DNA of 50,568 nucleotides from Deltaproteobacteria bacterium (GTDB lineage: Bacteria > Desulfobacterota > DSM-4660 > Desulfatiglandales > HGW-15), in the NCBI GenBank assembly GCA_019308985.1, contig JAFDHB010000006.1, forward strand, positions 1-50,568. The letters run 5' to 3'. Position 1 is the stretch's first letter. Each line of letters starts with the position of its first letter. The notes under the pieces were generated by a model, which worked only from the letters and a program-made list of their open reading frames with translations, was not told the DNA's origin and made no database searches. Below are positions 13,226 to 50,568 of the stretch, piece after piece. Both the position numbers and the translations under genes were made by a program.

Positions 13226-13234
13226 GGTCCTACC

Positions 13235-13402
13235 CTAGGATCCCGGCCTCTTGCAAGCAGGATGAGTACAATTCCGCTTCACCCTGGAAGGCTCTGCTGC
13301 ATTTACCTTGCAGGCCTGAAGGACCGCCTCTTCCATCTCAAGCCTCACCCTCTCGATAACGGGTCTTGCGTAAGGCTTCCTTGTCTTTCCTTCCCCGTCC
13401 AT
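13235..13402 (-). CDS. Candidate RiPP precursor peptide of cassette 1 (55 aa, three Cys)
   Basis: A 55-residue peptide lying between the radical SAM and kinase genes. The first part (MDGEGKTRKPYARPVIERV, then RLEMEEAVLQA) is charged and leader-like. The rest carries Cys31, Cys45 and Cys50 (ACKVNAAEPS; NCTHPACKRPGS). ATG 13402 has AAAGGAG 6 bases upstream and lies 19 bases past the radical SAM stop, fitting operonic translation. The PYxxP-x-hydrophobic leader pattern matches that of the 49554-49796 precursor. No homologue is known to me. A substrate role is inferred from position, leader pattern and Cys content. The frame could be extended upstream through other start codons, but the ribosome-binding site favours this one. 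Confidence 0.72.
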   Translation of the reverse strand: MDGEGKTRKPYARPVIERVRLEMEEAVLQACKVNAAEPSRVKRNCTHPACKRPGS

Positions 13403-13421
13403 TTCTTGCTCCTTTGAAATA

Positions 13422-14501
13422 TCACCCACCATGAAACGCCTCTGCCCTGAGGTGTGCGATTCTACAGAGGTATTCCACCGGTGTCTGGATCTCCCTATGT
13501 TCCAACCAGGCCATGCCCGGGCATTGCCCGCAAAGGTCAAGGAGTTCGCACCCGGAACAAGGGTAGTCCTTCCCTGCCCTTTGTTCCAGCAAACCGGGAA
13601 TAAACTCCCTCCATCCCTCCCTGAAGGAGCCCTGCCTCAAGCTATAGGTGCGAAAGCGACTCACCTCGCACGGAGCCAACTCCCCATAGGGATCAATGTG
13701 AAAAGTGGATACGCCTGCACCACAGGAAAAAAGCCTGCCCCCTTCCTGCTCGCCTATGAACTCTTCACAAAACAGTCGCCACTCCCTTGTCCTCTCCTCA
13801 TCGGAAAGATCCAGGTCCAGCACCTCCTCGGGGGACAGTCTCAACTTGCAGGGCACCCTGGATCCGTCGAGACGGGGATTTATCACGGGATCGAATCTGA
13901 ACTTCAGGCCCAGCCCTTCGGCCAAGGCCTTCATCTCCAAAAGTTCGTGTTTGTTCAGGGTCATCACCATGGTCTTGAGCTCTAGAGGGAGTCCTCTCTC
14001 AAGGAGGAACTCTATGCCCCTAATAGTATCCCTGTATGATCCATGGATCCCCGTGATTCTGTCATGGGTTTCACTGCTGGCCCCGTAGATGGAGATTTCT
14101 ATGGCCAGGGGGCTCCATTCTGCAAGGCAGTCGGCCTTTTCCTGCGTCACCAGGGTGCCGTTTGTAAAGAGGGTTATCAGGAACCCCTTTTTCTTCGCAC
14201 TTGCCAGGATATCCGTAAAATCTTTTCTGATCAGGGGTTCCCCTCCGGTAAAAAGCAGCCAGAGACAACCCTCTTCTGCCAATTGGTCAAGGATATCCAC
14301 TACTTCCCCAAGCGATAGCTCTCTTTTCATCGCCTCCCTGTCCAGGGCGGGCAGGTTACAATAACAGTGCACACACCTCAAGTTACACCGAAACGTCAGT
14401 TCCATGGAACCGTGCACGGGTATTCTCTTCTGTATGATCTCCCCGTACAAGCGATCGCCGAAATCGCCATAACTGATTTCAGGTATCTCGCCCAGGCCCA
14501 T
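13422..14501 (-). CDS. Radical SAM/SPASM peptide-modifying enzyme (cassette 1)
   Basis: A 359-residue enzyme. The radical SAM cluster motif CNLRCVHC gives Cys39, 43 and 46, and LLFTGGEPLIRKDF is the SAM-binding GGEP motif. The C-terminal SPASM region has spaced cysteines (FSCGAG, LAPCEV, YPCSGC, DLCGQC, YLCRIA) able to hold two further Fe-S clusters. PqqE-like SPASM enzymes abstract hydrogen from peptide substrates to make thioether or C-C links. It starts 6 bases after the PqqD gene and precedes the precursor, so it most likely modifies that Cys-containing peptide. Which bond is made cannot be told from sequence. Confidence 0.92.
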   Translation of the reverse strand: MGLGEIPEISYGDFGDRLYGEIIQKRIPVHGSMELTFRCNLRCVHCYCNLPALDREAMKRELSLGEVVDILDQLAEEGCLWLLFTGGEPLIRKDFTDILASAKKKGFLITLFTNGTLVTQEKADCLAEWSPLAIEISIYGASSETHDRITGIHGSYRDTIRGIEFLLERGLPLELKTMVMTLNKHELLEMKALAEGLGLKFRFDPVINPRLDGSRVPCKLRLSPEEVLDLDLSDEERTREWRLFCEEFIGEQEGGRLFSCGAGVSTFHIDPYGELAPCEVSRFRTYSLRQGSFREGWREFIPGLLEQRAGKDYPCSGCELLDLCGQCPGMAWLEHREIQTPVEYLCRIAHLRAEAFHGG

Positions 14502-14507
14502 AAGACC

Positions 14508-14804
14508 CTATATCTCCTCGATTGCCCCTATGGTCTCCAATTGGTTGAGGTGCTCTAGCAGGTCCTGTTCGGCCTCCGCGGGTGTAATATCGTATTCCTT
14601 CACGATCACGTCTCTTATTTCCCCAACCTTCGTCATTCCATCCACCATTTCCCATATGAAAGCCCCGGTTTCATTGAGCGTATAGATGTTTTCAAGGTCA
14701 GCCACGCCCTTTCCTATGGGGACCAGAACCATGTTATCCCCTATCCTCCTGGAGGCCATGGAACCCCTTTTCTTGTAGACCTTGTCCAGAATATCCATTT
14801 TCAT
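14508..14804 (-). CDS. PqqD-family peptide chaperone (cassette 1)
   Basis: A 98-residue PqqD-like protein with the typical core: YTLNETGAFIWEMVDG around residue 41, followed by an acidic helical stretch EIRDVIVKEYDITPAEAEQD and LEHLNQLETIGAIEEI at the end. PqqD proteins bind the leader of a ribosomal peptide (RiPP recognition element) and present it to the radical SAM partner. It is the first gene of the minus-strand cassette. The in-frame ATG two codons later (14798) cannot be excluded as start. An AT-rich promoter lies about 95 bases upstream. Confidence 0.9.
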   Translation of the reverse strand: MKMDILDKVYKKRGSMASRRIGDNMVLVPIGKGVADLENIYTLNETGAFIWEMVDGMTKVGEIRDVIVKEYDITPAEAEQDLLEHLNQLETIGAIEEI

Positions 14805-34629: not shown

Positions 34630-35322
34630 CTACCGTTCAGCAACCCTCCCTTGTATACCTTGTGACATGAGCTCTTTCAGCTTTCTCTCGGCACCGTCCC
34701 TTGTATTAAAGGTTCCTACGCAAAGCCTAAAGCCTTCCCTCTCATCTTCCATCCAGTAGGGGTGACACCCCAGCGTTTTCAAGGACTCCCACTTTTCCTG
34801 ACCGTCTCTCTTTGTCCGGTAGCTGCCTAACAAAACGGTGTACGGCACCCTTACGACAACCGTCTCCGGGAGCCCCATGTCCCGCTTGAATCTCTCAGCC
34901 TCCTCTTGGTCTTGGAAGCACCCCATATAGACCCTGTACCACAGTCCTGTGCTAAGGGCAACCCTGACGTAATACGCTGCCAAGCCGTTCTTTGCATAAC
35001 GGGAGACCGCTTTCCCCGCCTGCTCCAGGCTTCTAAAGGAGCCCACTTTCAACGAATAGGGATACCTGGTCTTGTATGCTGTTCTTAGAGCTTCTCTCTT
35101 TTGCACTGCCATAGCGGCCTCTCGACGCATCTCCTTGGGTACGTCCTTGATTCGCTCATCAGGAACAGCTTTGGATTGATTCGGTGGTTCTCTCGGCGTT
35201 GAGATTTGGACCGCCTCCTTGGGGACCTCGGTGGTTGTCCGGGTGCCCTCCTCTCCTTGCTGAACTCTTCTCTCCCCTCCAGGGCTACCGGGCCCCTGTG
35301 GCGATACCCTTACGGGCAACAA
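34630..35322 (-). CDS. SPOR-domain protein with two repeats
   Basis: A 230-residue protein. A Pro/Glu/Arg-rich N-terminus (about 80 residues) is followed by two SPOR-like repeats: YSLKVGSFRSLEQAGKAVSR with YRVYMGCFQDQEEAERF, then YTVLLGSYRTKRDGQEKWES with FRLCVGTFNTRDGAERKLKE. SPOR domains bind denuded peptidoglycan. Unusually it lacks a membrane helix or signal. It begins at TTG 35322, inside the last codons of the kinase gene in another frame, so it may be the tail of a formerly longer protein. The C-terminal half resembles the SPOR region of the 41069-42619 protein. Confidence 0.75.
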   Translation of the reverse strand: MLPVRVSPQGPGSPGGERRVQQGEEGTRTTTEVPKEAVQISTPREPPNQSKAVPDERIKDVPKEMRREAAMAVQKREALRTAYKTRYPYSLKVGSFRSLEQAGKAVSRYAKNGLAAYYVRVALSTGLWYRVYMGCFQDQEEAERFKRDMGLPETVVVRVPYTVLLGSYRTKRDGQEKWESLKTLGCHPYWMEDEREGFRLCVGTFNTRDGAERKLKELMSQGIQGRVAER

Positions 35323-37019
35323 CTCAGAACACCCACAGCCGTCTCTATCCCCAGGACCTTGGCTACGCTCGGCTTCCTCAGGTCGCAGTCTACCAAGAGG
35401 GCCTTTACTCCGGCCTGGGCCATGGTGATCGCCAAGTTGATCGCGACCAGGGTCTTGCCCTCCTCGTTGGTAGAACTCGTCACAGCGATGGACTTTAGCT
35501 TTTGGTCCGCATCCTTGAACTGGATATTGGTCCTAAGACCCCTGAAGCCTTCTGCCATCATGGACTTAGGTAACAAGTGGGCGATAAGATTCACGGATTC
35601 CTTCAGAGCATGCTCCTTGAGCTTTCCCCCGTACTTTTCCTTCAGTCCACCCCTTATGTCCTTTGCGTTGACCTGGGGAATCACTCCCAGCACCTGGACA
35701 CCCAGGGTCTCCTCCACATCCTCTATTGCTCCCAGGGAGGTGTCGAAGGTTTCTACCATAAAGGCGGCCACCAAGCCCACTATCATGCCTATCAGGGTGC
35801 CTGTGGCACCCACCATCCCCCTCTTGGGCGGGTTGATGGGCTTCGCGGGCAATAGGGCCGGCTTGATTATGTTGACGACTTCAGGCCTGTCCGCCCTCCT
35901 TATCATGGCCTCCTGGTTTTTCTTTTCCAGCAGGACGGTCATGTTATGGTACAGATCTACCTTCCTTTTCAATCGCTCGAATTCCAGCTTCTTGTCCATC
36001 AAGACCTTTGTCTTCCTGTTTACTTCACGGAGTTCCTCTTTTAGACCATCCACCCTGCCGCTTATCCTGTTTATTTCCAGCTTGAGGATAAACAACATTT
36101 TTCTTGCGGTCTCGACAATATCCCTGTTTATTCCCACTACCTGGGGATGTCGCTCCGTATAATCTTCAAGGAGTGTGTCCCTCTTGATCAATAGTTCCAC
36201 CAGCCTCTCGTTGACTGATTTGTATCTGCTCCCTCCTCTTTCAGAATAGTAGTCATGATCGGAAATAGAGGGATCTCTGACGAATATTTCCAGCCGTGCC
36301 CGGATTGATTCCAGCTCCTTTCTGTCCTCCTCCAGACCCCTTATCTCTTTCCTGATTGTCTTGGCCCTCACCAGGAGGTCTTCACTTTGGAGATCAATGG
36401 ATATGAGTTCATTTTCCCGGCTGAAACGATTGAATTCGTCCTCGGCCTCCTTGAGTTTTCTTCGTACTTCCTTGAGTTGATCCCTGATGTACCTTATGGT
36501 CTCCCTAGTGCGCCTCATCTGCTGTTCTGCAAGTACCTCTTTGTACGTAACCGCAATGGTGTTGGCCAGTTTCTGGGCGAAAACGGGACTGCTGTCCGTG
36601 ACCTTGATATTCAGGATGCTGCTGAATCTCTCCCTGGTCACCTCTACCTTTGACTGCAGGCCCTTTATGACGGGAAACGCGGAGCTATTTGGTATTTCTT
36701 GTAGCGGGGCATCCCTCGGCGGAATAAGGCCCATCTTCTCTGCGACCCGCAGGAACACCGGATATCCCTTGATCACTGAGATGTGTGTCTCCATCAGATC
36801 GGATCCGGACCACGTCCACGCTTCACTGTAAATTCCCTCCGCGGTTTGGGGCTTTTCGAACTCTATCACACATGTGGTGGAGTAAAGGGGTTCAGGAGCC
36901 CTGAGTGTGGCAAAGGTGGTACTGAATATGCCGAGTGCTATGGCAATGGTGATTACGATGAATTTCCTCTTTTTGAAAATCCACCAATACTCCCTCAGGT
37001 TGATGTCATACTGCGGCAA
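35310..37019 (-). CDS. Wzz-type chain-length determinant with truncated BY-kinase domain
   Basis: A 569-residue protein. An N-terminal Wzz domain with first membrane helix (IVITIAIALGIFSTTFATLR) precedes long coiled-coil stretches (about residues 160-380), a Pro-rich second helix region (GMVGATGTLIGMIVGLVAAF) and a P-loop domain. The latter has Walker A SSTNEEGKT (about 515) and Walker A' LLVDCDLRKP (about 541), then ends abruptly after ETAVGVLSCCP. The Walker B motif and Tyr-rich tail of bacterial tyrosine kinases are missing, about 150 residues. TTG 37019 has GGGAGAG upstream. It would span the inner membrane and regulate polysaccharide export length; kinase activity is doubtful. Confidence 0.88.
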   Translation of the reverse strand: MPQYDINLREYWWIFKKRKFIVITIAIALGIFSTTFATLRAPEPLYSTTCVIEFEKPQTAEGIYSEAWTWSGSDLMETHISVIKGYPVFLRVAEKMGLIPPRDAPLQEIPNSSAFPVIKGLQSKVEVTRERFSSILNIKVTDSSPVFAQKLANTIAVTYKEVLAEQQMRRTRETIRYIRDQLKEVRRKLKEAEDEFNRFSRENELISIDLQSEDLLVRAKTIRKEIRGLEEDRKELESIRARLEIFVRDPSISDHDYYSERGGSRYKSVNERLVELLIKRDTLLEDYTERHPQVVGINRDIVETARKMLFILKLEINRISGRVDGLKEELREVNRKTKVLMDKKLEFERLKRKVDLYHNMTVLLEKKNQEAMIRRADRPEVVNIIKPALLPAKPINPPKRGMVGATGTLIGMIVGLVAAFMVETFDTSLGAIEDVEETLGVQVLGVIPQVNAKDIRGGLKEKYGGKLKEHALKESVNLIAHLLPKSMMAEGFRGLRTNIQFKDADQKLKSIAVTSSTNEEGKTLVAINLAITMAQAGVKALLVDCDLRKPSVAKVLGIETAVGVLSCCP

Positions 37020-38392: not shown

Positions 38393-40186
38393 TTACTTGA
38401 CCAAAGCCCTGTAAAGTTCGCTGGATTCCCACAACATGCCGTGCGTTCCTCTTACCAGCGCCCCATCTTCCCTCAAGAACAGAACCATAGACATGCCCTC
38501 CAGAGCCTCCAGGCGGTTTGTCACAAGGAACATGGTCTTACCCCTTGAAAACTCCGGGAGACTTTCCATGATGGCCCTCTCCGTCTTTCCGTCCTGGGAG
38601 GAGGTGGGCTCATCCAGGACAAGGATATCCGGATCACGTACCAGGGTTCTAGCGAGGGCGAGCCTCTGCTTCTGCCCCTCCGAGAGTAATACCCCCTCTT
38701 CTCCCACCTGAGTTTCGTAACCACCGGGCAGGTTGACGATGAACTCATGGATTCCCGCCGCCTGGCAGGCCCGGGCCAGGTCCTCTTCGGTGGCATCGGC
38801 TCTTCCAAGCAAGAGGTTCTCCTTGATCGTTCCTGAAAGCAAGCGAACATTTTGGGATACATAGCCGATCCTCTCACGCAGGGACCCGATTTCATACTCT
38901 GAAACAGGTATACCGTCAAAGAAGATTTCTCCCTGTGCAGGCCTGTAAAGGCCCATGATTAAGCTCAGCAGCGTCGTCTTCCCGGCTCCGCTCGGGCCCA
39001 CGACACCGACATGCTCCCCGGCTCTGACGTGGAAAGAGCAATCTTTCAGCAAGGGCTCGCGCCCGTCATAGGAAAAGGAGACATCCCTAAACTCTACTTC
39101 CCCTTCCAGTCTGTGGGCAACCTTGCCCTTTCCGAGACCCTCTTCCGGCACGAGAGCGAAGAGGTTTGATATCCGCTGGAGACCAGCAACGGCCTCCTGC
39201 ATCTGGAGGTTTGCCGTTGCCAGGGCCTGTGCCGGCCCGAAGACGTATCCCGTGTACGCCTGAAATGCAAGAAGGGAGCCTAGGCTCCACTCCCCTCTTA
39301 TGACCCATGCGGCCCCTATTCCCAGCACCACCAGGCCCATCAGGCCAGGGATTGAATTAACCGCCAGATTTGCGACAGAGCCGACGGCGACGCGTTCCAT
39401 GGCCAAGTGAAGGGCCTCTTTGAGGCCTGAAACCAGGCCGGCGACGGTCTTTTCCTCCGAGGCGGAGGACTTGATCAGGGCGGTTGAGGATAGGGCCTCC
39501 TTGAGATTCATGGTGACTTTGGCCTCCCTTTCCATGCCATGGTGACTGAGAGAGAGGACCTTGGCGGAAAAGTATTTGAGGCACAAGAGGATTGCCGGCA
39601 CGAGCAGGATAACGGCCGACGCCAGTCGCCATTCCAGGTAGAACAGCAGCACAGTACCACCGAAAAAGCGAAAGACGTTGCCGATTATGTGGACGATGGT
39701 GCTGGAAAAAAACCAGCGCAGTTCTTCCACGTCGGAGGAGAGCCGGGACATCAAATAACCTGTCTGATTCTCGTCAAAAAATGCCTTGGGCAGCCTCAAG
39801 GTGTGTTCTACAAGATCTGTTTGTATGTCCAGGGTAATTCTCTTTTCAAGATTCGCAAAGCTGAATTCTCCCAGCATTCTCGCCGCCTTTGACCCTAGCG
39901 TGATGCAGACCAACAAGGCCAGGGCCCCTAGGAGAAGTTCTCTTTGACGCTGAAGCATGACTTCATCCACGATGTAGCGTATCACTAGGGGCTGAGGCAG
40001 GGCCAAGAGGGAAGTCAGGACAACCAGGAGGAGGCCTGTAGTGATCATCGGGCGGTAGGGGCGGACATAGGGACGCAGGGTCCTGAACGTCTCCCCGAGG
40101 CCGGGGTACTCTTCCTTACCCCCGAACCTGTCCCGGGGGAGTTTCCGGGAAAGTCCCTGTTTAAGATATGTTAACCAACTATTCAC
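38393..40186 (-). CDS. ABC transporter, fused membrane and ATP-binding domains
   Basis: About 597 residues from GTG 40186. Six membrane helices lie in the first half. The ATPase has Walker A GPSGAGKTT, signature LSEGQKQRLALARTL and Walker B ILVLDEPTSSQD. The switch-loop histidine of exporters (normally xAHRL) is Asn here (VTNRLEAL). It is an MsbA/lipid- or peptide-exporter type half-transporter with no peptidase domain. The frame is open up to TTG-like codons and 40270, but a TATAAT-containing promoter at 40239-40267 makes a start downstream of it likely. It diverges from a signal-peptidase-like gene near the RiPP locus, so peptide export is a possible role. Confidence 0.88.
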   Translation of the reverse strand: MNSWLTYLKQGLSRKLPRDRFGGKEEYPGLGETFRTLRPYVRPYRPMITTGLLLVVLTSLLALPQPLVIRYIVDEVMLQRQRELLLGALALLVCITLGSKAARMLGEFSFANLEKRITLDIQTDLVEHTLRLPKAFFDENQTGYLMSRLSSDVEELRWFFSSTIVHIIGNVFRFFGGTVLLFYLEWRLASAVILLVPAILLCLKYFSAKVLSLSHHGMEREAKVTMNLKEALSSTALIKSSASEEKTVAGLVSGLKEALHLAMERVAVGSVANLAVNSIPGLMGLVVLGIGAAWVIRGEWSLGSLLAFQAYTGYVFGPAQALATANLQMQEAVAGLQRISNLFALVPEEGLGKGKVAHRLEGEVEFRDVSFSYDGREPLLKDCSFHVRAGEHVGVVGPSGAGKTTLLSLIMGLYRPAQGEIFFDGIPVSEYEIGSLRERIGYVSQNVRLLSGTIKENLLLGRADATEEDLARACQAAGIHEFIVNLPGGYETQVGEEGVLLSEGQKQRLALARTLVRDPDILVLDEPTSSQDGKTERAIMESLPEFSRGKTMFLVTNRLEALEGMSMVLFLREDGALVRGTHGMLWESSELYRALVK

Positions 40187-40238
40187 CTGCGCCTTGTCCG
40201 ACTCTTCCTCCGCCTTATTGAGCAAAAAACAACGACAA

Positions 40239-40267
40239 ATTATAACATAATACTTGGCGCTTTTTAA
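40239..40267 (-). promoter_or_regulatory. Promoter of the ABC transporter gene
   Basis: On the minus strand TTAAAA (40267-40262) and a perfect TATAAT (40244-40239) are spaced 17 bp. Transcription would start near 40232, which decides against translation from 40270. Confidence 0.6.
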
Positions 40268-40292
40268 CAAATGGGTCCTACCTCTAATTTAA

Positions 40293-40358: not shown

Positions 40359-40808
40359 ATGGTGGTCGGCAACAAATTCCAAGATCTCTGCACTCAACTC
40401 CTGGTAGAAGGCCTTGGCATCAGGTTCATGGCCCTGGGCCGAAGTATGTATCCCACTATAAGGGAAAAAGATATCATCACCATCGCGCCGATCGCACCCT
40501 CTGAAGTTAAGAGGGGGGACATAATCCTGTATCGGTCCGACAGCGGCATTGTGGCCCATCGGGTCCTGAGGGTGACAACGTTCCAAGGCACCAAAAATCA
40601 GTTCACCATGGGCCCCGACACTTGGGGTAAGCCGAGGGAGGTAATAGGGGTTGAAAACGTCCTGGGAAGAGTCCTCCATATTGAAAGGGATGGCATGAGG
40701 TTGGACCCCTATTCCGCGAGGGCAAAGGTGAGATTGGCACTCCACAAAATCGCATCCAGGACTAAACGCCTCCTTAGAAATCCACACCCCTTCGGTTTCA
40801 GGGGATAA
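40359..40808 (+). CDS. S24/S26-family signal-peptidase-like protein
   Basis: A 149-residue protein with the signal peptidase I nucleophile motif ALGRSMYPTIREKD near residue 28 and a second-box region KRGDIILYRSDSGIVAHRVL. The His in AHRVL would be the general base, as in SipW/ER-type enzymes. The third box is altered (FTMGPDTW instead of the usual F-x-T-K-G-D). No clear membrane helix is present. Similar small S26-like proteins accompany RiPP clusters and may cut leaders or exported peptides. It is divergent from the ABC exporter; a paralogue is at 49830-50375. Activity is uncertain given the altered third box. Confidence 0.8.
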   Translation: MVVGNKFQDLCTQLLVEGLGIRFMALGRSMYPTIREKDIITIAPIAPSEVKRGDIILYRSDSGIVAHRVLRVTTFQGTKNQFTMGPDTWGKPREVIGVENVLGRVLHIERDGMRLDPYSARAKVRLALHKIASRTKRLLRNPHPFGFRG

Positions 40809-42642: not shown

Positions 42643-43977
42643 TCACCTCTTTTCAAGGATCAAGACATAGAACCCTTTGGGATAGACAATGCCGTCCTGG
42701 GTCTCCAGTCTAACGAAATCTAGGTTCTCTATCTTCGGCAGGATATGGGGTATCTTCTCCATCAACATCTCCCGGGTATACACCCTGGAGGATGGCATCT
42801 CGATACCAAGAAATGGGAGCAGGTGATCCAACAGAGACCTATGACACCGGCCCTCCAGTACTACCAGGTCCCCTCTAAGTTTAAGAAAAGAGGGCAAATC
42901 CACTAGCCTGGCTCCAAGCCCCAATTCTCGGGCGGCCTTCAACAGGTGGCCGAAATGGATTGAGTGCTCCCTGTGATTCACCACCTGGTAGGCCTTGGGA
43001 TAGGCCCAGGTGCTGCCATATTCCACGATATAGCCACGACCTCCAGGATTAAGCAGGCCGGCAAGATGGGCGATAAACTCCAGGGCACCTAGGTTCACTA
43101 TGAACAATGGGGGTGCATCGGAGAAATCCAGACCAAGCCTCTTTCCGATAGTCCAACCCTCTGATGCTGTTCCGTCCTGGTCCAATTCGTCTCTTGCCAT
43201 TTTGACCACGGGCAGGTCCGCTATCATCTCATTTGCAATGACAAGATCATAGCTGGTATCCAAGCCCTGCCTTTTGCGGATATTGCCCATCCGAAACAAG
43301 ACCCTCCCTCCATGTTCTCTGTTATTCTCCCCCTGGGATTTCAGCAGGACCGGGGAAATGTCAAAGAAAGTATACTGCATGGTCCCATAGACCTCCGGGG
43401 CACTCCTTTTCACTTCCCTTAGAAACTCCCTGCCGAATATACCCGTGCCTCCGCCCACCTCCAGAACCTTCATCCCCTCCCCCAACCTGTCTTCATCCAT
43501 GATAATCCTGGCAAATCTTGCGCCATAGCTCATGTTGTCAAGCGCGGGATGGGGATCTCGGTAGAGATGACTTACGGTCATTTCCACTTCCTCGAATTGG
43601 TTCCCTGGGTCAACTATCTCTGACCCGTAATAGTGGCAGAGGTCATGCTGATCTTCCATGGACCTCGCTGACACGTATTCTTGAAAAGAGCTTAGAGCCA
43701 ATTGATTCGGCAGGTTATCAGGTGGATGATCTTTGACCTCTTCGATTATTTGAAACTCGGGCTTCAGCCACCTCCGTGCTATCTCCATTTGGTCCCGGCC
43801 CAGGCAGCCCTTGCCTCCCCCCTGGGGTCTCAGGAGCTTGTCAAGGACGGCCTTTTCCTCCTTTCCTATCAATAGACATTTTTCCTTTAAGGAACGATTG
43901 GGCGACACCAATATCCAGGCACCCTCATTCAGGGCATACCAGATCACACCGTCCGAAATTACCATTCTCTGATCCAT
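42643..43977 (-). CDS. MidA-like SAM-dependent methyltransferase (RiPP locus 2)
   Basis: A 444-residue protein. A non-standard N-terminal region of about 170 residues contains a PqqD-like or winged-helix-like stretch (KEEKAVLDKLLRPQGGGKGC) and an HxxxxG-type middle. A class I methyltransferase fold follows: VLEVGGGTGIFGREFL (motif I), YTFFDISPVLLKSQGE, NEMIADLP, and GGRGYIVEYGSTWAYP. The order resembles the MidA/NDUFAF7 family, whose best-known member dimethylates an arginine. It starts 1 base after the PqqD stop (ATG 43977, GAGGAATGAG upstream), so it is coupled to PqqD. A tailoring role on the peptide is inferred, not shown. Confidence 0.75.
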   Translation of the reverse strand: MDQRMVISDGVIWYALNEGAWILVSPNRSLKEKCLLIGKEEKAVLDKLLRPQGGGKGCLGRDQMEIARRWLKPEFQIIEEVKDHPPDNLPNQLALSSFQEYVSARSMEDQHDLCHYYGSEIVDPGNQFEEVEMTVSHLYRDPHPALDNMSYGARFARIIMDEDRLGEGMKVLEVGGGTGIFGREFLREVKRSAPEVYGTMQYTFFDISPVLLKSQGENNREHGGRVLFRMGNIRKRQGLDTSYDLVIANEMIADLPVVKMARDELDQDGTASEGWTIGKRLGLDFSDAPPLFIVNLGALEFIAHLAGLLNPGGRGYIVEYGSTWAYPKAYQVVNHREHSIHFGHLLKAARELGLGARLVDLPSFLKLRGDLVVLEGRCHRSLLDHLLPFLGIEMPSSRVYTREMLMEKIPHILPKIENLDFVRLETQDGIVYPKGFYVLILEKR

Positions 43978-43978
43978 C

Positions 43979-44281
43979 TCATTCCTCTTCAAGGACAAGT
44001 GCGCCTAGTTTCAGGAGTTCCTCCAGGAATTTCCTGGTGTCAGAAAGGGCCGTGTCAAGGTCCACCTCGTAGCCTTCCGAGATCCTGGAGCACAGGTCCA
44101 CAAGATCCTTCGCACTGTCAATGGACTTCCAGATAGCCCATCCCATACCATTGAGCCTGTATATCTTCCGTATCTCTTCCCTGTCATGGGAAACGGGCAC
44201 AAGATACCCTTCCCCGTTGACCATTCGAGCCACAAACATGGAATTTTTTTTGAGTTGTCCTGCCCCTGCTAACTTAACCAT
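43979..44281 (-). CDS. PqqD-family peptide chaperone, divergent copy (RiPP locus 2)
   Basis: About 100 residues. The PqqD pattern is recognisable in YLVPVSHDREEIRKIYRLNG and MGWAIWKSIDSAKDLVDLCS, with the acidic tail EELLKLGALVLEEE. It would bind the precursor leader. ATG 44281 is chosen; an internal Met (MFVARMVNGEG) is an alternative, and an extension upstream is open but AT-rich and unlikely. It is coupled to the methyltransferase gene and divergent from the B12 radical SAM gene across 128 bases. Confidence 0.82.
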   Translation of the reverse strand: MVKLAGAGQLKKNSMFVARMVNGEGYLVPVSHDREEIRKIYRLNGMGWAIWKSIDSAKDLVDLCSRISEGYEVDLDTALSDTRKFLEELLKLGALVLEEE

Positions 44282-44309
44282 GACGGCTATCCAACGAAAC
44301 ACTCTCCTA

Positions 44310-44338
44310 TTGAAAGCAATACTAAAATAATTTAAAAT
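44310..44338 (+). promoter_or_regulatory. Promoter of the main RiPP operon
   Basis: TTGAAA (44310-44315) and TAAAAT (44333-44338) at 17-bp spacing, 70 bases before ATG 44410. A minus-strand TATAAT (44345-44340) nearby suggests a facing promoter for the PqqD/methyltransferase pair, so the two units could be regulated together. Confidence 0.7.
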
Positions 44339-44409
44339 GATTATATCACGTTTCGATTCATGGAGAAAGAGCAGGATATTGCCTGCGAATTTCATTTGAT
44401 GGTAGAGTT

Positions 44410-45822
44410 ATGAAGATTCTGTTGATTAATCCGCCTTCCAAAGAACTGCACCAGATCTTTTTCCCCCTCGGCCTCGCATCCATCGCAGGGGCCCTCCTAG
44501 GGGCTGGACATGAAGTCAAGGTGTGGGACATAAATGCCCTTAAGTCGAGCAAGGAAGAGGTCCTTGAAAATATTGACAATGAGATAGACTCCTTTTTCTT
44601 AGTGGGCATTACTGCCCTTGCGGGCGACTACCCGTACGTAAAATGGCTAACGCGAAGTATCAAGAATATCAGTCCGGATTCAAGGATAGTGGTGGGCGGA
44701 CACCTGGCCTCGGCCCTTCCCGAATTTCTCATGGAAAAACTGCCTGTAGACATTGTGGTAAGGGGTGAAGGGGAAGAAGCTATCACGGATTTGCTCGATG
44801 CCCTAGAGAAGGGCTCAGACCTTGGTCGGGTTAGAGGGATCTATTACAGGAGCGGCCATGGAGGAATAAGGGCCACGAATACCAGGCCGCCCGTGGAGGA
44901 CCTCGATCGACTGCCGCTCCCTCCGTGGCATTTATTCCCCATGACCACTTATCTATCCGAACCACACCGAGGTTTCAACCAGCAGGGCAGTCGTGAAGAT
45001 CATGGCCTCATGAGCATAATGGCCAGTCGGGGATGCCCCTTCCATTGTCTATACTGTGACCATACGATCAAGGGCTACAGGCCCAGGTATCGTTCCGTTG
45101 AAAGGGTAATCCAGGAAATAAAGGCCTCATTGATGGAGTACGGGGATCGTATAAAAACCTTCCATTTTTGGGACGATATACTGATTTGGGACAAGGAGTG
45201 GACAAGGAAGTTCTGTGAGTGCCTCTTGCAAGAAAAGTTAGACATGAAATGGTCATGCAATGCCCATGTAAACCTTGTCGAATATCCTCTCATTTCATTG
45301 ATGAAGGAGGCGGGTTGTACCAATGTGCGTTTCGGAATCGAGTCGGGCAGTCAGGGAATTCTGGACGCCCTTAACAAGGGGGTCAATGTTGATAGGGCCT
45401 TGGATGCCCTGAAGACTTGTCTGGAGGCGGGCCTTTCCCTCACCCTTTACTTCATGGTGGGCATGGAAGGTGAGACCGACCGGACCGTCAACGAGACAAT
45501 CGCATTTCTCGACCGGTTGATAACGCCCTTTAATGTTTACCAGTTCAACAAGATCCATTTGTTCATGCTCACCCCTTTTCCCGGCACGGAGCTTTTTGAT
45601 CTGGCATGCCAAAAGGGGCTCATTCCTGATATTGATGCATTTCTTCACAGGGGTTGCGACGCCTACTTCGATATCCCGCTGAATATCTCTGGCTGCCCGG
45701 ACCAGAAGCTCTCTGCACTGAAGCAGAAGCTTGAGAGGGAAGTGGGCTTGATAATTGGCGACAGAAGAAATAGGCTCCACAATGCACTGTTCGCGATAAA
45801 GAAGAGGAGCTTGGGGGAGTGA
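44410..45822 (+). CDS. B12-binding-domain radical SAM enzyme (RiPP locus 2)
   Basis: A 470-residue protein. An N-terminal B12-binding-type Rossmann domain (MKILLINPPS, later VVGGHLASALPEFL) precedes a radical SAM core with CPFHCLYC (Cys209, 213, 216), then FGIESGSQGILDALNKGVN and the YFMVGMEGETDRTV segment. Enzymes of this class methylate unactivated carbons, rearrange rings or epimerise peptide residues. The DxHxxG cobalamin ligand motif is not seen, so cobalamin may bind base-off without a protein ligand. It opens the plus-strand operon after the promoter at 44310 and overlaps the next PqqD gene (GTGA). Confidence 0.88.
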   Translation: MKILLINPPSKELHQIFFPLGLASIAGALLGAGHEVKVWDINALKSSKEEVLENIDNEIDSFFLVGITALAGDYPYVKWLTRSIKNISPDSRIVVGGHLASALPEFLMEKLPVDIVVRGEGEEAITDLLDALEKGSDLGRVRGIYYRSGHGGIRATNTRPPVEDLDRLPLPPWHLFPMTTYLSEPHRGFNQQGSREDHGLMSIMASRGCPFHCLYCDHTIKGYRPRYRSVERVIQEIKASLMEYGDRIKTFHFWDDILIWDKEWTRKFCECLLQEKLDMKWSCNAHVNLVEYPLISLMKEAGCTNVRFGIESGSQGILDALNKGVNVDRALDALKTCLEAGLSLTLYFMVGMEGETDRTVNETIAFLDRLITPFNVYQFNKIHLFMLTPFPGTELFDLACQKGLIPDIDAFLHRGCDAYFDIPLNISGCPDQKLSALKQKLEREVGLIIGDRRNRLHNALFAIKKRSLGE

Positions 45823-46085
45823 CAACTTTCCGAATCAAAGACGGCATTCTTTTCCAAGAGTTGGGCCGGGACCTGGTCCTCTTCGACCTGGAAACCAATC
45901 TCCCTTATGCCTTGAACCCTGTTGGCTCCCTTATCTTTCGGATGATTGATGGGGAAAGGACTCTTGAGGAGATCGCGGAAAGAATAAGCCGAGAATATGA
46001 CGTGGGTTTCGACCAGGCGATGAAGGACCTCCTCAAGCTGTCTGAAGCCCTGATCCAGAGGGGAATTATCAAGCAAGTGAGGTGA
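45819..46085 (+). CDS. PqqD-family peptide chaperone (second in locus 2)
   Basis: An 88-residue protein with a clear PqqD core: LVLFDLETNLPYALNPVGSL, IFRMIDGERTLEEIAERISR and a C-terminal leucine-rich helix (LLKLSEALIQRGIIKQVR). It serves as leader-binding element for a radical SAM partner. GTG 45819 overlaps the preceding stop codon (GTGA), so translation is probably coupled. Confidence 0.87.
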   Translation: MTTFRIKDGILFQELGRDLVLFDLETNLPYALNPVGSLIFRMIDGERTLEEIAERISREYDVGFDQAMKDLLKLSEALIQRGIIKQVR

Positions 46086-46092
46086 TATCATC

Positions 46093-46377
46093 ATGGATTT
46101 CGATGGCAAGATCCTTCTCCTCAATCCTGATTTCGTATTCAGGGAAGAAGAGAATGGGGCACTCCTTTTCAATCCCAAAACCAACGCACTCCACTGTGTA
46201 AACCCTGTCGGTGCCTTTATATGCAGGTTGTGTGACGGCAAGAAGAGCATTGACCAAATCACCCGCGGGCTCTTCGAGGAGTTCGATATTGGAGGAAACC
46301 GTGATGGGGTAATAAAGGACATAGAGGACTTTGTTAACAAGATGATTAACCTCAACCTTTTGTTGGCGCGGGGGTAA
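46093..46377 (+). CDS. PqqD-family peptide chaperone (third in locus 2)
   Basis: A 94-residue PqqD homologue: LLFNPKTNALHCVNPVGAFI, CRLCDGKKSIDQITRGLFEE and DFVNKMINLNLLLARG. It is a paralogue of its neighbour and lies 2 bases before the next radical SAM gene. Three leader-binding proteins for three radical SAM enzymes suggests dedicated partners. Confidence 0.87.
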   Translation: MDFDGKILLLNPDFVFREEENGALLFNPKTNALHCVNPVGAFICRLCDGKKSIDQITRGLFEEFDIGGNRDGVIKDIEDFVNKMINLNLLLARG

Positions 46378-46379
46378 GG

Positions 46380-47465
46380 ATGGAGGTCCTTTCAGCTCCC
46401 ATATCTGTCTTCATCTCCGTGACATACAAGTGCAACCTGCGCTGCAGACACTGCGCGGTTTACTGGGGCGAGAATACCAACGGGGACGTTGACACTTCTA
46501 CATGGCTTCGTTTTTTCCAGGAGCTTTCGGATTTGAAGGTTTTCAGAGTGAGAATAACCGGCGGTGAACCGCTGATGCGGGACGATATATGGCAGTTGAT
46601 GGACTCGATCCATGAACTACCCATGAGGTTCGCCCTTAATACCAATGCCATCCTGGTAGATCGGCCATGTGCCCAAAGGTTGAACCAGTATGACAAGATA
46701 GATGAAATAATGGTGAGCCTGGACGGTTCCTGCCCGGAAACACATGACCCCTTAAGAGGGCAAGGCACTTTTGAGACGGTACTCCTCGGGATCGAACAAC
46801 TGGCACAGACCCCTGTCCCCCTTTCCTTTTACTGCACCGTCAACCATTATAACCTAAATGACCTGGAAGGCATAACCAAGCTGGCAAAGGAATTCAACCC
46901 CCTAGCCATCAAGTTCAACGACCTGTTGCCCGAAGGCAGGGGTTTGGGAAACTATAGGGAACTGGGGCTGAGCAGGGAAGAATGGGGAGGGGCACTGGAG
47001 CAACTGAGAGAGCTCCGCGAAACCTACGGTCCCATGATTTCAGGAACAATACTTGACCAGGGAGAGATATACCAGACCTTGAGCCAACTGACCTCGGAAA
47101 ATAAGGTGGCGGCACCACCCAATAACCTTTGCGGGTGCGGTGCCCTCATTCAGGAGTGTGCCGTGCGGCCCGATGGCTGGATCGTCCCATGCGATCGACT
47201 ACCCAACCTGAAGGCCGGCCACATAGTTGAAAGGCGATTTGCCCAGATATGGCGATCATCAGAGGTGTTTACCCGATTCCGAAAAAGAAGGGAAATATCC
47301 CTGAGCGATTTACCTGAGTGTCAAGATTGCCTGTATAAGTCAAGGTGCACAGGAGGTTGCCCTGCGGTGCCCAATGCCCTCTTCGGTAGCTTCGCTGCGA
47401 GGGATCCTTTAGGGTGCTTCCGTGTGTACAGCGGGATGGAGGATTTCAGTGGGATCTGGACCTAA
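46380..47465 (+). CDS. Radical SAM/SPASM peptide-modifying enzyme A (RiPP locus 2)
   Basis: A 361-residue enzyme. The radical SAM motif CNLRCRHC (Cys18, 22, 25) and ITGGEPLMRDDI are followed by LPEGRGLGNYRELG and a C-terminal SPASM region (NLCGCGALIQECAVRPDG, WIVPCDRLP, ECQDCLYKSRCTGGCPAV, LGCFRV) with enough cysteines for two auxiliary clusters. It probably forms a crosslink on the Cys-rich peptide encoded downstream. Its end overlaps the next enzyme's start by 17 bases. Confidence 0.92.
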   Translation: MEVLSAPISVFISVTYKCNLRCRHCAVYWGENTNGDVDTSTWLRFFQELSDLKVFRVRITGGEPLMRDDIWQLMDSIHELPMRFALNTNAILVDRPCAQRLNQYDKIDEIMVSLDGSCPETHDPLRGQGTFETVLLGIEQLAQTPVPLSFYCTVNHYNLNDLEGITKLAKEFNPLAIKFNDLLPEGRGLGNYRELGLSREEWGGALEQLRELRETYGPMISGTILDQGEIYQTLSQLTSENKVAAPPNNLCGCGALIQECAVRPDGWIVPCDRLPNLKAGHIVERRFAQIWRSSEVFTRFRKRREISLSDLPECQDCLYKSRCTGGCPAVPNALFGSFAARDPLGCFRVYSGMEDFSGIWT

Positions 47466-48552
47466 CTATTACCCCTTGAAGGCCATTTATCTTAACCCGA
47501 TCGACAGCTGCAACTTGAAATGTAGGCACTGCTGGTTGTCTCCTGATGCCCTGATTGCCGGGAGCACCTTGACAGGCCGGAACTCAGGTGTTGAATCAGG
47601 ACCCTCCCTGGATGCTATGAAAAGGGTGATAACCGAGGCAAAGCCCTTGGGCCTGGATTCCATAAAGCTTACCGGGGGAGAGCCCTTCTTGAGAAAAGAC
47701 ATCTTGGATTTGATAGACCTCTTTCACGATGAAGGACTCTATGTGGATATTGAAACCAACGGGACCCTGATAGACAGATCGGTCGCAAGAAGGTTGGAGC
47801 AGGCCCGGGTCAGATACATCAGCGTAAGCCTTGACGGTGCATCAGAAAAAACACATGACGACCTCAGAGGCGTTCAAGGGGCATTTCGCAACGCAATACG
47901 GGGAATCGGGCATCTCAGAGAATGCGGGCTTAATACCCAGATCATTATGTCCCTTTCAAGGGCAAACTGCAGAGAGATAACTGACATGGCTGAGCTCGCG
48001 TCTGAGTTGGGTCTTCAATCATTGAAGATTAATCCGATACTCCCTATCGGCCGGGGATTGGCAATGCACAGAAAGATGGAGACCCTGACCGTGGAAGAGA
48101 TCCTTTACGCGGCGGACCGCGTCCGTGACGAACTACAAACAAAAGTGAGCATCCCCATCAATTTCTGCATACCAATCGCCTTTCTTCCCTTGAAAGACAT
48201 AATGGAAGGCAATCACTCCGAGTGCGCTATCCTCAATATCTTGGGCATTGTGGAGAACGGTGATATCTCCTTTTGCGGAATACAGAAGGTAGAAAAAGAC
48301 CTGGTAATGGGAAACATTCACAGGGACTGGCTGCCGGAAATTTGGATACATCACCCTCTCCTTACCTTCATGAGGGAAGCAATCCCTGGCCAGTTGAGAG
48401 GAATTTGCAAGAAGTGCTTCTTCAAGAAAACGTGCATGGGAAATTGCATCGCCTGCACTTACCACCTCAGCAAGAGCCTAACTGAACCTTACTGGTTTTG
48501 CCAGGAGGCATACAGGAAAGGGCGTTTTCCTGAAACGAGGTATATTCATTGA
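47449..48552 (+). CDS. Radical SAM/SPASM peptide-modifying enzyme B (RiPP locus 2)
   Basis: A 367-residue enzyme. CNLKCRHCWLSPDALI gives the cluster cysteines (Cys21, 25, 28), LTGGEPFLRKDI binds SAM, and ILPIGRGLAMHRKM is a paralogous counterpart of the LPEGRG segment in enzyme A. The SPASM region has SECAILNIL, ISFCGIQ, ICKKCFFKKTCMGNCIACTY and FCQEAYR. GTG 47449 follows GGAGG at 8 bases and is preferred to GTG 47422. Two SPASM enzymes plus PqqD plus HprK-like kinase resemble the SynChlorMet (ScmE/ScmF-type) arrangement as I remember it. Confidence 0.92.
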   Translation: MGSGPNYYPLKAIYLNPIDSCNLKCRHCWLSPDALIAGSTLTGRNSGVESGPSLDAMKRVITEAKPLGLDSIKLTGGEPFLRKDILDLIDLFHDEGLYVDIETNGTLIDRSVARRLEQARVRYISVSLDGASEKTHDDLRGVQGAFRNAIRGIGHLRECGLNTQIIMSLSRANCREITDMAELASELGLQSLKINPILPIGRGLAMHRKMETLTVEEILYAADRVRDELQTKVSIPINFCIPIAFLPLKDIMEGNHSECAILNILGIVENGDISFCGIQKVEKDLVMGNIHRDWLPEIWIHHPLLTFMREAIPGQLRGICKKCFFKKTCMGNCIACTYHLSKSLTEPYWFCQEAYRKGRFPETRYIH

Positions 48553-48553
48553 T

Positions 48554-49603
48554 ATGGCGGATAACATGGATTTGGACATTTCAGGCCTTATACTTCGCAT
48601 CTCCCTTTTGGAGGTAGAGACCAAGTTGAAGGATGATCTGGTAGACATATTTGACCCCTTCGTGACTGGGGATGGGAGTGAACACCATGAGATTTTGTGC
48701 GTCGTACCCGTCAAAACCAGAAGATGGAGAGGTGTGAATCAGGAGCGGATGTCTCTCATTAAGGAAGTGTTGGAGGAACCCCTAAACAAATTTCCCTTTG
48801 TAGAGGACACAGAAAAGATGATTGGCTGCCTCCTTAAAAGGGTCAGGCCCTTTCTCGCAAGCCCGGAAACGAAGGGCTACCTTTCCAGGGTAAAACACCG
48901 CCGTGATATCCAGGTCTATCATCTGCCAGGAGGCCTGCTGATCAGAAGGCTCCATGGCAGGGAGTCTGTCCTCTTCCTAAAGGTCAACGCCCGTCGGAGA
49001 TTCAAGGCAGCCTCCCTGTACGGCGCGGCCTACTTTATCGCCTCTAATGCTATGCCCATCCAGGACGGGCTCATGCTCCATGGCGTGGGTGTCTCGAGGT
49101 TCGGCTCGGGCGTATTGTTTCTAGGTGCCTCGGGCGGAGGGAAGACGACCGTGGCAGAACTCTCGCCCCCGGGGAATGTCATTTCTGACGATTGCATTAT
49201 AGTAAAGAGAAAGGGAGAAGAATATTTTCTTCACCCTTCTCCTTTTAACCAATATTTGGGCTCCAATGTTGGACTAAGAAGGAGGCTGGCCATTGGGCTC
49301 TTTTTGGAGAAGGACAGAAGCGTGTATTTACAGGAAATCTCTCCTTCAGAGGCATGTGCACGGATCCTCATGAATTATATACACTTCTTTCGACACTACC
49401 CTTCCGACACCGCAGAGAAATCATTTGAACTGGTTACGTCCATGTGCAACCAGACCCCGTTTTATGTCCTCCATTTCAACAAGACTCCCTCCTTTTGGAA
49501 ATTGTTGGAGGATAGGCTCTTTATGCTTAAACCCAAGATAAAGGAGCAATACTATGGCTTCGAAGAAGAAAAAACAACCCTACGAACCTCCCAGGGTCTA
49601 TGA
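48554..49603 (+). CDS. HprK-like kinase of RiPP locus 2
   Basis: A 349-residue protein. An N-terminal 170 residues I cannot assign are followed by an HprK/PckA-type P-loop, GASGGGKTT (191-199), an acidic ISDDCIIVK motif (210-218) and HPSPFNQYLGSNV in the region where the substrate would sit. It shares layout with the cassette-1 kinase at 12329-13225. HprK-type proteins phosphorylate serine, and homologues in other RiPP clusters modify peptide serines; the downstream peptide is Ser-rich. ATG 48554 begins right after the preceding stop. The precursor gene begins inside its last 50 bases. Confidence 0.82.
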   Translation: MADNMDLDISGLILRISLLEVETKLKDDLVDIFDPFVTGDGSEHHEILCVVPVKTRRWRGVNQERMSLIKEVLEEPLNKFPFVEDTEKMIGCLLKRVRPFLASPETKGYLSRVKHRRDIQVYHLPGGLLIRRLHGRESVLFLKVNARRRFKAASLYGAAYFIASNAMPIQDGLMLHGVGVSRFGSGVLFLGASGGGKTTVAELSPPGNVISDDCIIVKRKGEEYFLHPSPFNQYLGSNVGLRRRLAIGLFLEKDRSVYLQEISPSEACARILMNYIHFFRHYPSDTAEKSFELVTSMCNQTPFYVLHFNKTPSFWKLLEDRLFMLKPKIKEQYYGFEEEKTTLRTSQGL

Positions 49604-49796
49604 ACTGAATGTGGACCTATCACAGGCAATGGGACAGACCCAGTGTGCGCGAGGGGCGAGCGCTTCCGGAAGCTGTAGCCCCGGGCGGGGTCCCGCCTCT
49701 CCAAATTGTGCCAGCGGTCGGTCGGCCAGCAGCCAGTGCGCAACAGGTCAAACTCCGGGCACGTCTTGTGGTGCTGGTGGATCTCCGGCAATGTGA
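49554..49796 (+). CDS. Candidate RiPP precursor peptide with five periodic CxxG repeats (80 aa)
   Basis: An 80-residue peptide. The leader is basic then hydrophobic (KKKKQPYEPPRVYELNVDLS, QAMGQTQ). The rest consists of five tandem units starting with Cys31, 41, 52, 62 and 72, each with Gly three residues later: CARGASASGS, CSPGRGPASPN, CASGRSASSQ, CATGQTPGTS, CGAGGSPAM. Spacing is 10, 11, 10, 10. The units are rich in Ser, Ala, Pro and Gly and share no long identical DNA, so periodicity is kept at protein level. ATG 49554 has AAGGAG 8 bases upstream, inside the kinase gene end. Sole small peptide between modifying enzymes and protease, so it is the expected substrate. Confidence 0.85.
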   Translation: MASKKKKQPYEPPRVYELNVDLSQAMGQTQCARGASASGSCSPGRGPASPNCASGRSASSQCATGQTPGTSCGAGGSPAM

Positions 49797-49829
49797 ATAG
49801 GGGCCCCTATCACAAATGCTCTCGTAACC

Positions 49830-50375
49830 ATGGCCATCGAATCATTGTCCAAACTATTGGAACCGGGATCTATGAAGAACGTGCCTCGATCCTATTCAAG
49901 CTCTCCTCCTCGAGGGGAAAGGAGCTCTGACAGCCCTTCCTCAAGCGAATTCGTCATGTTTTCCTTTAAGGGATTCAGCATGTTTCCTTTCTTGAGGCCT
50001 GGCGATAAACTGGTTGTAAGGGGGGGATCCCACATGAGGTTTAAGGTAGGCAACATCGTCGTTTACCGGGACCACCATTCCCTGACCAGCCCCTCTCTGA
50101 TGGCACATCGGATCGTGAGAAGGGTTTCCGACAAGCATTTTGTCACCAAGGGAGATAACCTTGTCAGGGCCGACCTCGGGTTATGCCAGTTGGATGACCT
50201 AATAGGTCAGGTGATATTCATAATCAGAAAGGGACGCATAGTCTCCCTCACCAGGGGGCTGCCTGCATGGTTCCAGGGATGGATAGCCCTTTTTTCCAGG
50301 ATAAATTGCACCCCAGGAATTATCCTTAGGAGACTGAAAAGATTCATTCATCCCTACTATCGGACCTATGGCTAG
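49830..50375 (+). CDS. S24/S26-family signal-peptidase-like protein (RiPP locus 2)
   Basis: About 181 residues. A Ser/Pro-rich variable N-terminus is followed by the nucleophile box FKGFSMFPFLRPGDKLVV and FKVGNIVVYRDH, then AHRIVRRVSDKHFVTKGDN, which has the His base and K-G-D-N box of SipW/ER-type signal peptidases. It probably cleaves a peptide bond after modification, with leader removal as the obvious candidate. There is no clear membrane helix and the true start may be ATG 49872 or 49956. It lies 33 bases after the precursor gene. It is better conserved than the 40359 homologue, whose third box is altered. Confidence 0.82.
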   Translation: MAIESLSKLLEPGSMKNVPRSYSSSPPRGERSSDSPSSSEFVMFSFKGFSMFPFLRPGDKLVVRGGSHMRFKVGNIVVYRDHHSLTSPSLMAHRIVRRVSDKHFVTKGDNLVRADLGLCQLDDLIGQVIFIIRKGRIVSLTRGLPAWFQGWIALFSRINCTPGIILRRLKRFIHPYYRTYG

Positions 50376-50483
50376 CCTTTGCTCTCCACTTTTGTCGTTG
50401 ATTCTTGGTGTTCCCGCATATCATCTTGACCGGGGATAGGGTTTCTAAGGCCCCCATTTGACAGCTACGACCGGATTATATTG

Positions 50484-50568
50484 ATGTATAAAACCATTGA
50501 GGCACAGATCCTCGCTTGCATATCAAGAGCAGAGCTCAGAGCCCCAGACATGGAGAGGATAGAGGTCC
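50484..50568 (+). CDS. Start of a nucleotidyltransferase-like gene, cut by the window edge
   Basis: The last 85 bases stay open from ATG 50484 and read YKTIEAQILACISRAELRAP then DMERIEV. The E-A-Q-x-L-A-C-x-x-R-x-E-L-x-x-x-x-x-E-R-I pattern resembles the N-terminus of the uncharacterised nucleotidyltransferases often found in lasso and other RiPP clusters beside HprK and S26 genes. Only 28 residues are visible and the ribosome-binding site is weak, so the call rests on pattern and context. Confidence 0.5.
   Translation, partial: MYKTIEAQILACISRAELRAPDMERIEV

Follow-up and report, generated by a model that had tools for sequence, protein, structure and literature searches.

A cluster of radical S-adenosylmethionine (SAM) enzyme genes near the end of a 50,568-nucleotide stretch of DNA from a Deltaproteobacteria bacterium (contig JAFDHB010000006.1; hereafter the window) raises the question of what it makes and from which substrate. 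The original prediction, drawn from the sequence alone, placed here a locus for a ribosomally synthesized and post-translationally modified peptide (RiPP) that resembles the Scm (SynChlorMet) cassette and goes beyond it by a B12-type enzyme and a methyltransferase. The open reading frame (ORF) list and Pfam/NCBIfam profile scans bear this out. Ten cassette genes lie within 42643-50375, and the Scm assignments are best or second-best NCBIfam matches of the window proteins (ScmE, ScmF, ScmD and ScmC), all below cut-off. The locus is best explained as an enlarged Scm-type RiPP cassette with an 80-residue peptide as its precursor. The probability of this core claim, as distinct from each step of the chemistry, is about 0.88.

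The ten genes form two divergent groups. The minus strand carries a SAM-dependent methyltransferase (42643-43998, 451 residues, Methyltransf_28/23-like; PF02636 37 bits, cut-off 23.3) and the overlapping PqqD1 (43979-44395), a putative leader-binding RiPP recognition element (RRE) paired with it at 42643-44395. The other eight genes run in one direction on the plus strand and mostly touch or overlap. They encode a B12-binding radical SAM enzyme of the HpnJ/BchE/ApyD-like kind (44410-45822, 470 residues), two further putative leader-binding RREs, PqqD2 (45819-46085) and PqqD3 (46093-46377), an ScmE-like (46380-47465) and an ScmF-like (47422-48552) radical SAM/SPASM enzyme, an HprK/phosphoenolpyruvate carboxykinase (PEPCK)-fold kinase (48554-49603, 349 residues), the precursor peptide (49554-49796) and a soluble S26 (signal-peptidase-like) protease (49830-50375). 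All three PqqD proteins exceed the PF05402 cut-off of 23.4 (49.9, 56.1 and 45.0 bits for PqqD1 to PqqD3). The start of PqqD1 is probably overcalled, judging from its sequence; an in-frame ATG near 44281 would give a protein of about 100 residues, as in the related locus L001.

The precursor is a Cys-rich peptide with five Cys, a leader containing QPYEPPRVYELNVDLSQAMG and a core of five C-x-x-G-x-x-[A/P] units. It is a real gene. Chance is excluded because no other ORF of 30-260 residues in the 50.6-kb window has at least three C-x-x-G motifs and because the peptide is conserved in other genomes. An AAGGAG stretch, read by eye, lies directly 5' of its ATG. A search of 5.8 billion proteins at E up to 1, with four candidates scored, returned two relatives that are 80% and 67% identical; the gene of the first, JRH06_05085, adjoins a relative of the kinase gene, JRH06_05090. 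Scanning with an ScmF-like profile yielded 43 genome loci (L001-L043), and L045 and L046 served as canonical Scm references. Homologous loci do carry a small peptide gene at this position: it directly follows the kinase gene in all five of the closest loci, L001-L005. The kinase ORF ends at 49603, downstream of the peptide ATG (49554), an arrangement shared by L001 and L003; this overlap suggests coupled translation. Comparison with L001 gave dN = 0.09, dS = 1.91 and dN/dS of about 0.05 for the peptide, an approximate value given the high dS and the overlap of its initial codons with the kinase gene. Of eight genes that gave a usable ratio, the peptide has the lowest, and the other seven range from 0.09 to 0.37; the ScmE-like gene (split in L001) and the ScmF-like gene (saturated) were left out.

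The same precursor grammar recurs across the related loci. The whole length of the 43 loci was scanned for ORFs of 35-260 residues in which Y-x-x-P precedes at least three C-x-x-G motifs. Forty ORFs in 35 loci were found, none more than 553 bp from a cassette gene, compared with 0-2 ORFs in each of 20 residue shuffles. A further peptide in L027, without Y-x-x-P, brings the loci with a precursor-type peptide to 36 of 43. No precursor was found in L007, L009, L015, L029, L032, L042 or L043; five of these seven (not L009 or L042) end no further than about 0.4 kb from the ScmF-like or kinase gene, judging from coordinates. In the 41 peptides comprising the 40 ORFs and the window's own, 262 of 273 core Cys residues begin a C-x-x-G, a count in which three per peptide were already required by selection; shuffled cores averaged 60 and reached at most 80. 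At +6 from Cys, the window group (the window and L001-L005) has Ala or Pro for all 30 of its Cys, and the other peptides for 72%. Successive Cys are 10 or 11 residues apart in 24/24 intervals of the window group and in 161/208 elsewhere. A precursor has between 3 and 20 C-x-x-G units. Many leaders have a small-residue site before the first Cys: a QAMG type occurs in the window and eight loci, an AHA/AYA type in 15 loci and neither in 13 (L017 is in two groups). The window peptide was the best of 16 phmmer queries for 24 ORFs at related loci, a result that, like the C-x-x-G count, depends less on the selection criteria, although composition may contribute to it. The precursor with 20 units (L020:3026-3736) comes from a Delongbacteria metagenome-assembled genome, and that of L012 (11981-12643) has a charged C-terminal extension of roughly 100 residues after its Cys repeats.

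The enzyme genes accompany the precursor in a largely conserved order. The full order, with the methyltransferase and a PqqD on one strand and B12 enzyme, PqqD, PqqD, ScmE, ScmF, kinase, precursor and S26 on the other, is found in L003 and also in L001, which has a split ScmE. The predicted PqqD-PqqD-SPASM-SPASM succession is not a fixed feature even of the nearest relatives: L002 and L005 lack the ScmE-like gene. Most of the full order is retained in L002, L004 and L005. L004 has the B12 enzyme, one PqqD, ScmE, ScmF, kinase, precursor and S26 on a contig that begins just before the B12 gene. L005 has the methyltransferase, a PqqD, an extra PqqD, the B12 enzyme, two PqqD, a split ScmF, kinase, precursor and S26, and the L002 contig begins in a PqqD. 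The ScmE-like protein is 61-74% identical in L001 (split), L003 and L004, and was not found beside the cassette in L002 and L005. The ScmE-like enzyme is dispensable in some members of the window's clade because these two loci are without it. The precursor cores of L002 and L005 differ from those of L001 and L003, and comparing them could reveal the role of ScmE. The two ORFs of the L001 ScmE-like gene (L001:8915-10020) perhaps reflect a frameshift or an assembly error. Over all 43 loci, where contig ends lower the counts, the kinase is present in 35, the nucleotidyltransferase described below in 26, a B12 enzyme scoring at least 400 bits in 8 and a methyltransferase of the window's kind in 4. 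The B12 gene adjoins the cassette in L001, L003, L004, L005, L029 and L031, which fall in two well-supported clades of the ScmF tree; in L024 and L032 it lies 5-8 kb from ScmF and is only possibly linked.

Comparison with the NCBIfam models locates the window relative to canonical Scm. The ScmF-like protein scores 335 bits on TIGR04251 (cut-off 400), the ScmE-like protein 238.7 on TIGR04250 (cut-off 400), PqqD1 to PqqD3 17.6, 40.6 and 41.2 on ScmD (cut-off 100) and the kinase 22.9 on ScmC (cut-off 125). The corresponding scores in L046 are 591.1, 583.6, 119.7 and 266.6 bits. The original prediction held that the peptide goes beyond known Scm. The window peptide indeed has no NCBIfam match up to E = 1, but a precursor model, ScmA (TIGR04252, cut-off 35), already exists; the L001 orthologue scores 7.5 on it and L046 69.1. 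L046 thus exceeds the ScmA, C, D, E and F cut-offs. L045 exceeds those of ScmD, E and F, and its precursor, with a YxxP leader and C-x-x-G units, scores 26.9 on ScmA. A 52-row ScmF tree groups the window with L001-L005 (100/98) and places the five canonical rows in another group. ScmF matches at 1e-60 or better occur in 16 of 85 genomes of the class of genome G001, five of them above cut-off. The Scm-type assignment is made despite the missed cut-offs because the gene set is of the same kind and the precursor grammar is shared.

Several observations weigh against this assignment. The window misses all five Scm cut-offs (TIGR04248-TIGR04252). YxxP and three C-x-x-G motifs were selection criteria for the precursors, and the L027 peptide lacks YxxP. 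L009 has the methyltransferase, the kinase and an S26-nucleotidyltransferase, yet no precursor was found there. The kinase was not found in the precursor-bearing loci L033, L035 and L036, nor in the 18 kb taken around canonical L045, and 20 of the 43 loci have an S26 gene (contig ends lower this count). L002 and L005 lack the ScmE-like gene, with best genome-wide matches of just 33% and 29% identity, L004 has a single PqqD, not a pair, separating its B12 gene from its ScmE-like gene, and L005 carries one additional PqqD. The dS values between the window and L001 are near saturation, the methyltransferase structure model is poor (pLDDT 59.8) and was left aside in assigning its function, and a nucleotidyltransferase start at 50484 is not claimed, as its alignment is weak. 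For the HprK-like kinase BsfK, mutations of YxxPxL leader residues did not abolish phosphorylation (PMC10368454).

The enzyme complement is that of the original prediction: one B12-type and two SPASM radical SAM enzymes. The B12 enzyme exceeds the Pfam gathering scores for B12-binding (PF02310, 69.9 bits) and Radical_SAM (PF04055, 80.7 bits). Its best NCBIfam match is HpnJ (177.3 bits, below the cut-off of 577.6), and close relatives occur at L001, L003, L004 and L005. The proteins encoded at 46380-47465 and 47422-48552 exceed the gathering scores of both Radical_SAM and SPASM. The methyltransferase matches five Pfam methyltransferase models at or above their gathering scores; its relatives in L001, L003, L005 and L009 are 49-70% identical and each adjoins a PqqD. 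A search of its profile against Protein Data Bank (PDB) sequences gave mainly generic methyltransferase domains. Elsewhere, in the second clade that carries B12 enzymes, a PrmA/PRMT-like methyltransferase gene (L031:13161-14120, from a profile scan) lies next to the precursor gene, as does one in L034 (13540-14490) that looks similar.

The kinase scores 22.6 bits on Hpr_kinase_C, below the gathering score of 33.3. Its predicted structure (pLDDT 92.4) matches PEPCKs and HPr kinases, and it carries a Walker A motif (GASGGGKT) and an ISDD motif. On this model it is an HprK/PEPCK-fold protein with a Walker A motif, in agreement with the HprK-like kinase first proposed. The predicted protease is of the S26 type (TIGR02228 46.7 bits, just below the cut-off of 51.85). 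The Ser of G-x-SM-x-P (Ser50) and the His of HR (His93) are invariant in 10 aligned proteins, and no 19-residue stretch exceeds 1.6 on the Kyte-Doolittle scale. An S26 gene lies near the cassette at 8/8 QAMG-type, 2/15 AHA/AYA-type and 9/13 other-leader loci (kinship ignored; L017 in two groups). S26 was therefore rejected as the linked leader peptidase of every Scm-like cassette and is retained as a candidate for the window.

Gene fusions connect these activities. A nucleotidyltransferase (NTP_transf_5; assigned by Pfam for L001 and L004 and by a local profile for the others) directly follows S26 in L001, L002, L004 and L005, and six ORFs, one each in L003, L004, L009, L017, L031 and L034, fuse S26 to it. 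A kinase-S26 fusion occurs in L040. A SPASM-kinase fusion occurs in L041, with a SPASM part of the kind seen in a second cassette of the window (12329-14804). Because fusions link the SPASM enzyme, kinase, S26 and nucleotidyltransferase, they suggest one pathway. By analogy with its relatives, a nucleotidyltransferase gene may extend the locus beyond the window's end. A 28-residue ORF at 50484-50568 (+) is a possible 5' part of this gene, cut by the window's end; in its alignments with the nucleotidyltransferases of L001, L004 and L005, 98, 361 and 7 of 500 shuffles were as good.

A mechanism consistent with these parts can be proposed. PqqD2 and PqqD3 would bind the YEPPRVYEL leader and pass the core to the SPASM enzymes. 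Their targets would be the repeated C-x-x-G-x-x-[A/P] units, in which they would most likely join each Cys sulfur to a nearby carbon; a thioether as their main product is a tentative assignment, at somewhat less than even odds. Since L002 and L005 are without the ScmE-like enzyme, the ScmF-like one is expected to be essential. The SPASM enzymes might instead oxidize Cys in a formylglycine-like reaction, with no cross-linking. The window's CSPGR and its relatives' CSAGR resemble the sulfatase motif C-x-P/A-x-R, and anaerobic sulfatase-maturating enzymes in the PDB are among the matches of the ScmF profile (2.5e-14). The Arg varies among precursors, however, and SkfB (1.5e-22) and PqqE (1.3e-16) match the ScmF profile better, which makes Cys oxidation unlikely.

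In the proposed pathway, the B12 enzyme would probably add C-methyl groups, and a further methyl group from the PqqD1-methyltransferase pair is expected with similar confidence. Phosphorylation of core Ser/Thr by the HprK-like kinase is the likeliest of these tailoring steps. The nucleotidyltransferase of the relatives may subsequently attach a sugar to the phosphate, by analogy with the lasso peptide pseudomycoidin. Cleavage by the soluble S26 protease at the small-residue site AMG|QT is slightly favored as the step that removes the leader. Export of the product would fall to an ATP-binding cassette (ABC) transporter.

The peptide could also be a secreted Cys-rich matrix or metal-binding protein, with Cys free or in disulfides, while the radical SAM enzymes use another substrate. 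The variable number of C-x-x-G units (3-20) would suit such a protein, as would the putative exopolysaccharide-type genes near the cassette in the window and several related loci. This explanation is improbable: the unit itself is fixed, peptide and enzymes stay together in 36/43 loci and leaders with YxxP are known to accompany PqqD-like proteins (PMC10368454). Least probable of all is a small cofactor cut from the peptide, as with PQQ or mycofactocin, and degradation of the remainder; PqqD and SPASM enzymes do occur in cofactor pathways and the mycofactocin maturase model gives the first SPASM protein 159.7 bits (cut-off 265), but a variable repeat number fits poorly with release of one small unit and the dN/dS constraint spans the whole core.

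The window's cassette is a Scm-type cassette enlarged by a B12 enzyme and a PqqD-methyltransferase pair, whose chemistry is inferred. A wider generalization is more doubtful. The Scm-like cassettes described here might form one broad RiPP class in several phyla, in which each C-x-x-G-x-x-[A/P] repeat (3-20) yields an identical radical-made unit in tandem, followed by phosphorylation and phospho-glycosylation; the window's subtype would add B12-dependent C-methylation and a second methylation, and export would accompany exopolysaccharide. NCBI has already catalogued the Scm cassette, and the precursor grammar makes it testable by naming the substrate, the repeat unit, the likely cleavage site and the enzymes. 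The fusion links suggest that lasso-type phosphorylation or phospho-glycosylation may also decorate radical SAM peptides.

Upstream of the cassette lie an ABC exporter gene (38393-40270, -) and a second S26-like gene (40359-40808, +; TIGR02228 55.9 bits, cut-off 51.85), both possibly linked and both syntenic in L001. Exporter relatives lie near the cassette in L001 (76% identity) and L004 (57%), and the L004 counterpart of the second S26-like protein is fused to a nucleotidyltransferase. A putative Wzc-like protein of exopolysaccharide type (35310-37019) is 57% identical in L004 and 36-40% in L006, L008, L010, L013, L014 and L026, near cassettes. The second cassette (12329-14804, -) combines genes for a PqqD (63.2 bits), a SPASM-type radical SAM enzyme and an HprK-like protein with a short ORF (13235-13540) whose peptide contains KPYARPVIERV; L030 and L041 have related SPASM genes close to their Scm-like cassettes. 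A LynF/TruF/PatF-like peptide prenyltransferase gene (L017:4752-5621, -) is close to a Scm-like precursor, and its protein scores 80.7 bits on TIGR04445 (cut-off 140) and 74.8 on PF19156, above that cut-off. Promoter (3 found, 6.6 expected) and terminator scans (13 found, 9.4 expected, SD 3.0) gave nothing usable. No convincing family of DNA repeats was found within the locus, the longest repeat being common to both SPASM genes, and an Rfam search of the window gave no match at gathering scores.

The locus has the gene-level marks of a RiPP cluster, judged from sequence: a linked precursor with leader and core, a PqqD-type leader binder and modifying enzymes. GeoRSP systems (TIGR04302-04303) likewise combine PqqD with SPASM enzymes, and membership was rejected as the window SPASM proteins score 112 and 132.6 bits against the TIGR04303 cut-off of 400. 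Sactipeptide and ranthipeptide maturases (StsB, PapB, AlbA, SkfB) are also SPASM enzymes that act on Cys-rich peptides. Among the matches listed, such models fall far below cut-off (StsB 111 of 625, PapB 83.3 of 340), and the window core lacks Asp and Glu, the ranthipeptide acceptor residues.

Phosphorylated lasso peptides (BsfA/BsfK, paeninodin, pseudomycoidin) share the HprK-like kinase and a PqqD-like protein, BsfA shares the YxxP leader, and lasso clusters have a nucleotidyltransferase that is sometimes fused to a protease. Ser3 of a precursor whose leader contains YxxPxL is the target of the HprK-like kinase BsfK, which the PqqD-like BsfB1 assists (PMC10368454). PadeB1 has nanomolar affinity for its leader (PMC5067487). 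A kinase and a nucleotidyltransferase phospho-glycosylate pseudomycoidin, and this nucleotidyltransferase is protease-fused in several clusters (PMC8498205). The window differs in its radical SAM enzymes, S26 protease and Cys-repeat core. Lasso membership was rejected, with no lasso cyclase (asparagine synthetase-like) among the ten cassette proteins scanned with Pfam and NCBIfam.

A literature search, with most subscription journals outside its reach, found no paper using SynChlorMet or the Scm model accessions and none combining HprK, PqqD, radical SAM and RiPP. Such cassettes were probably first described by Haft and Basu in 2011. Scm itself is the closest known system, with two SPASM enzymes, PqqD, the HprK-like ScmC and a Cys/Gly precursor. 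Beyond this set, the window has a B12 radical SAM enzyme and a methyltransferase, and its PqqD proteins outnumber those of canonical L045 and L046 by two. In the wide grouping used here, which joins PqqD, ScmE-like, ScmF-like and HprK-like proteins with a YxxP/C-x-x-G precursor, the window is a Scm cassette.

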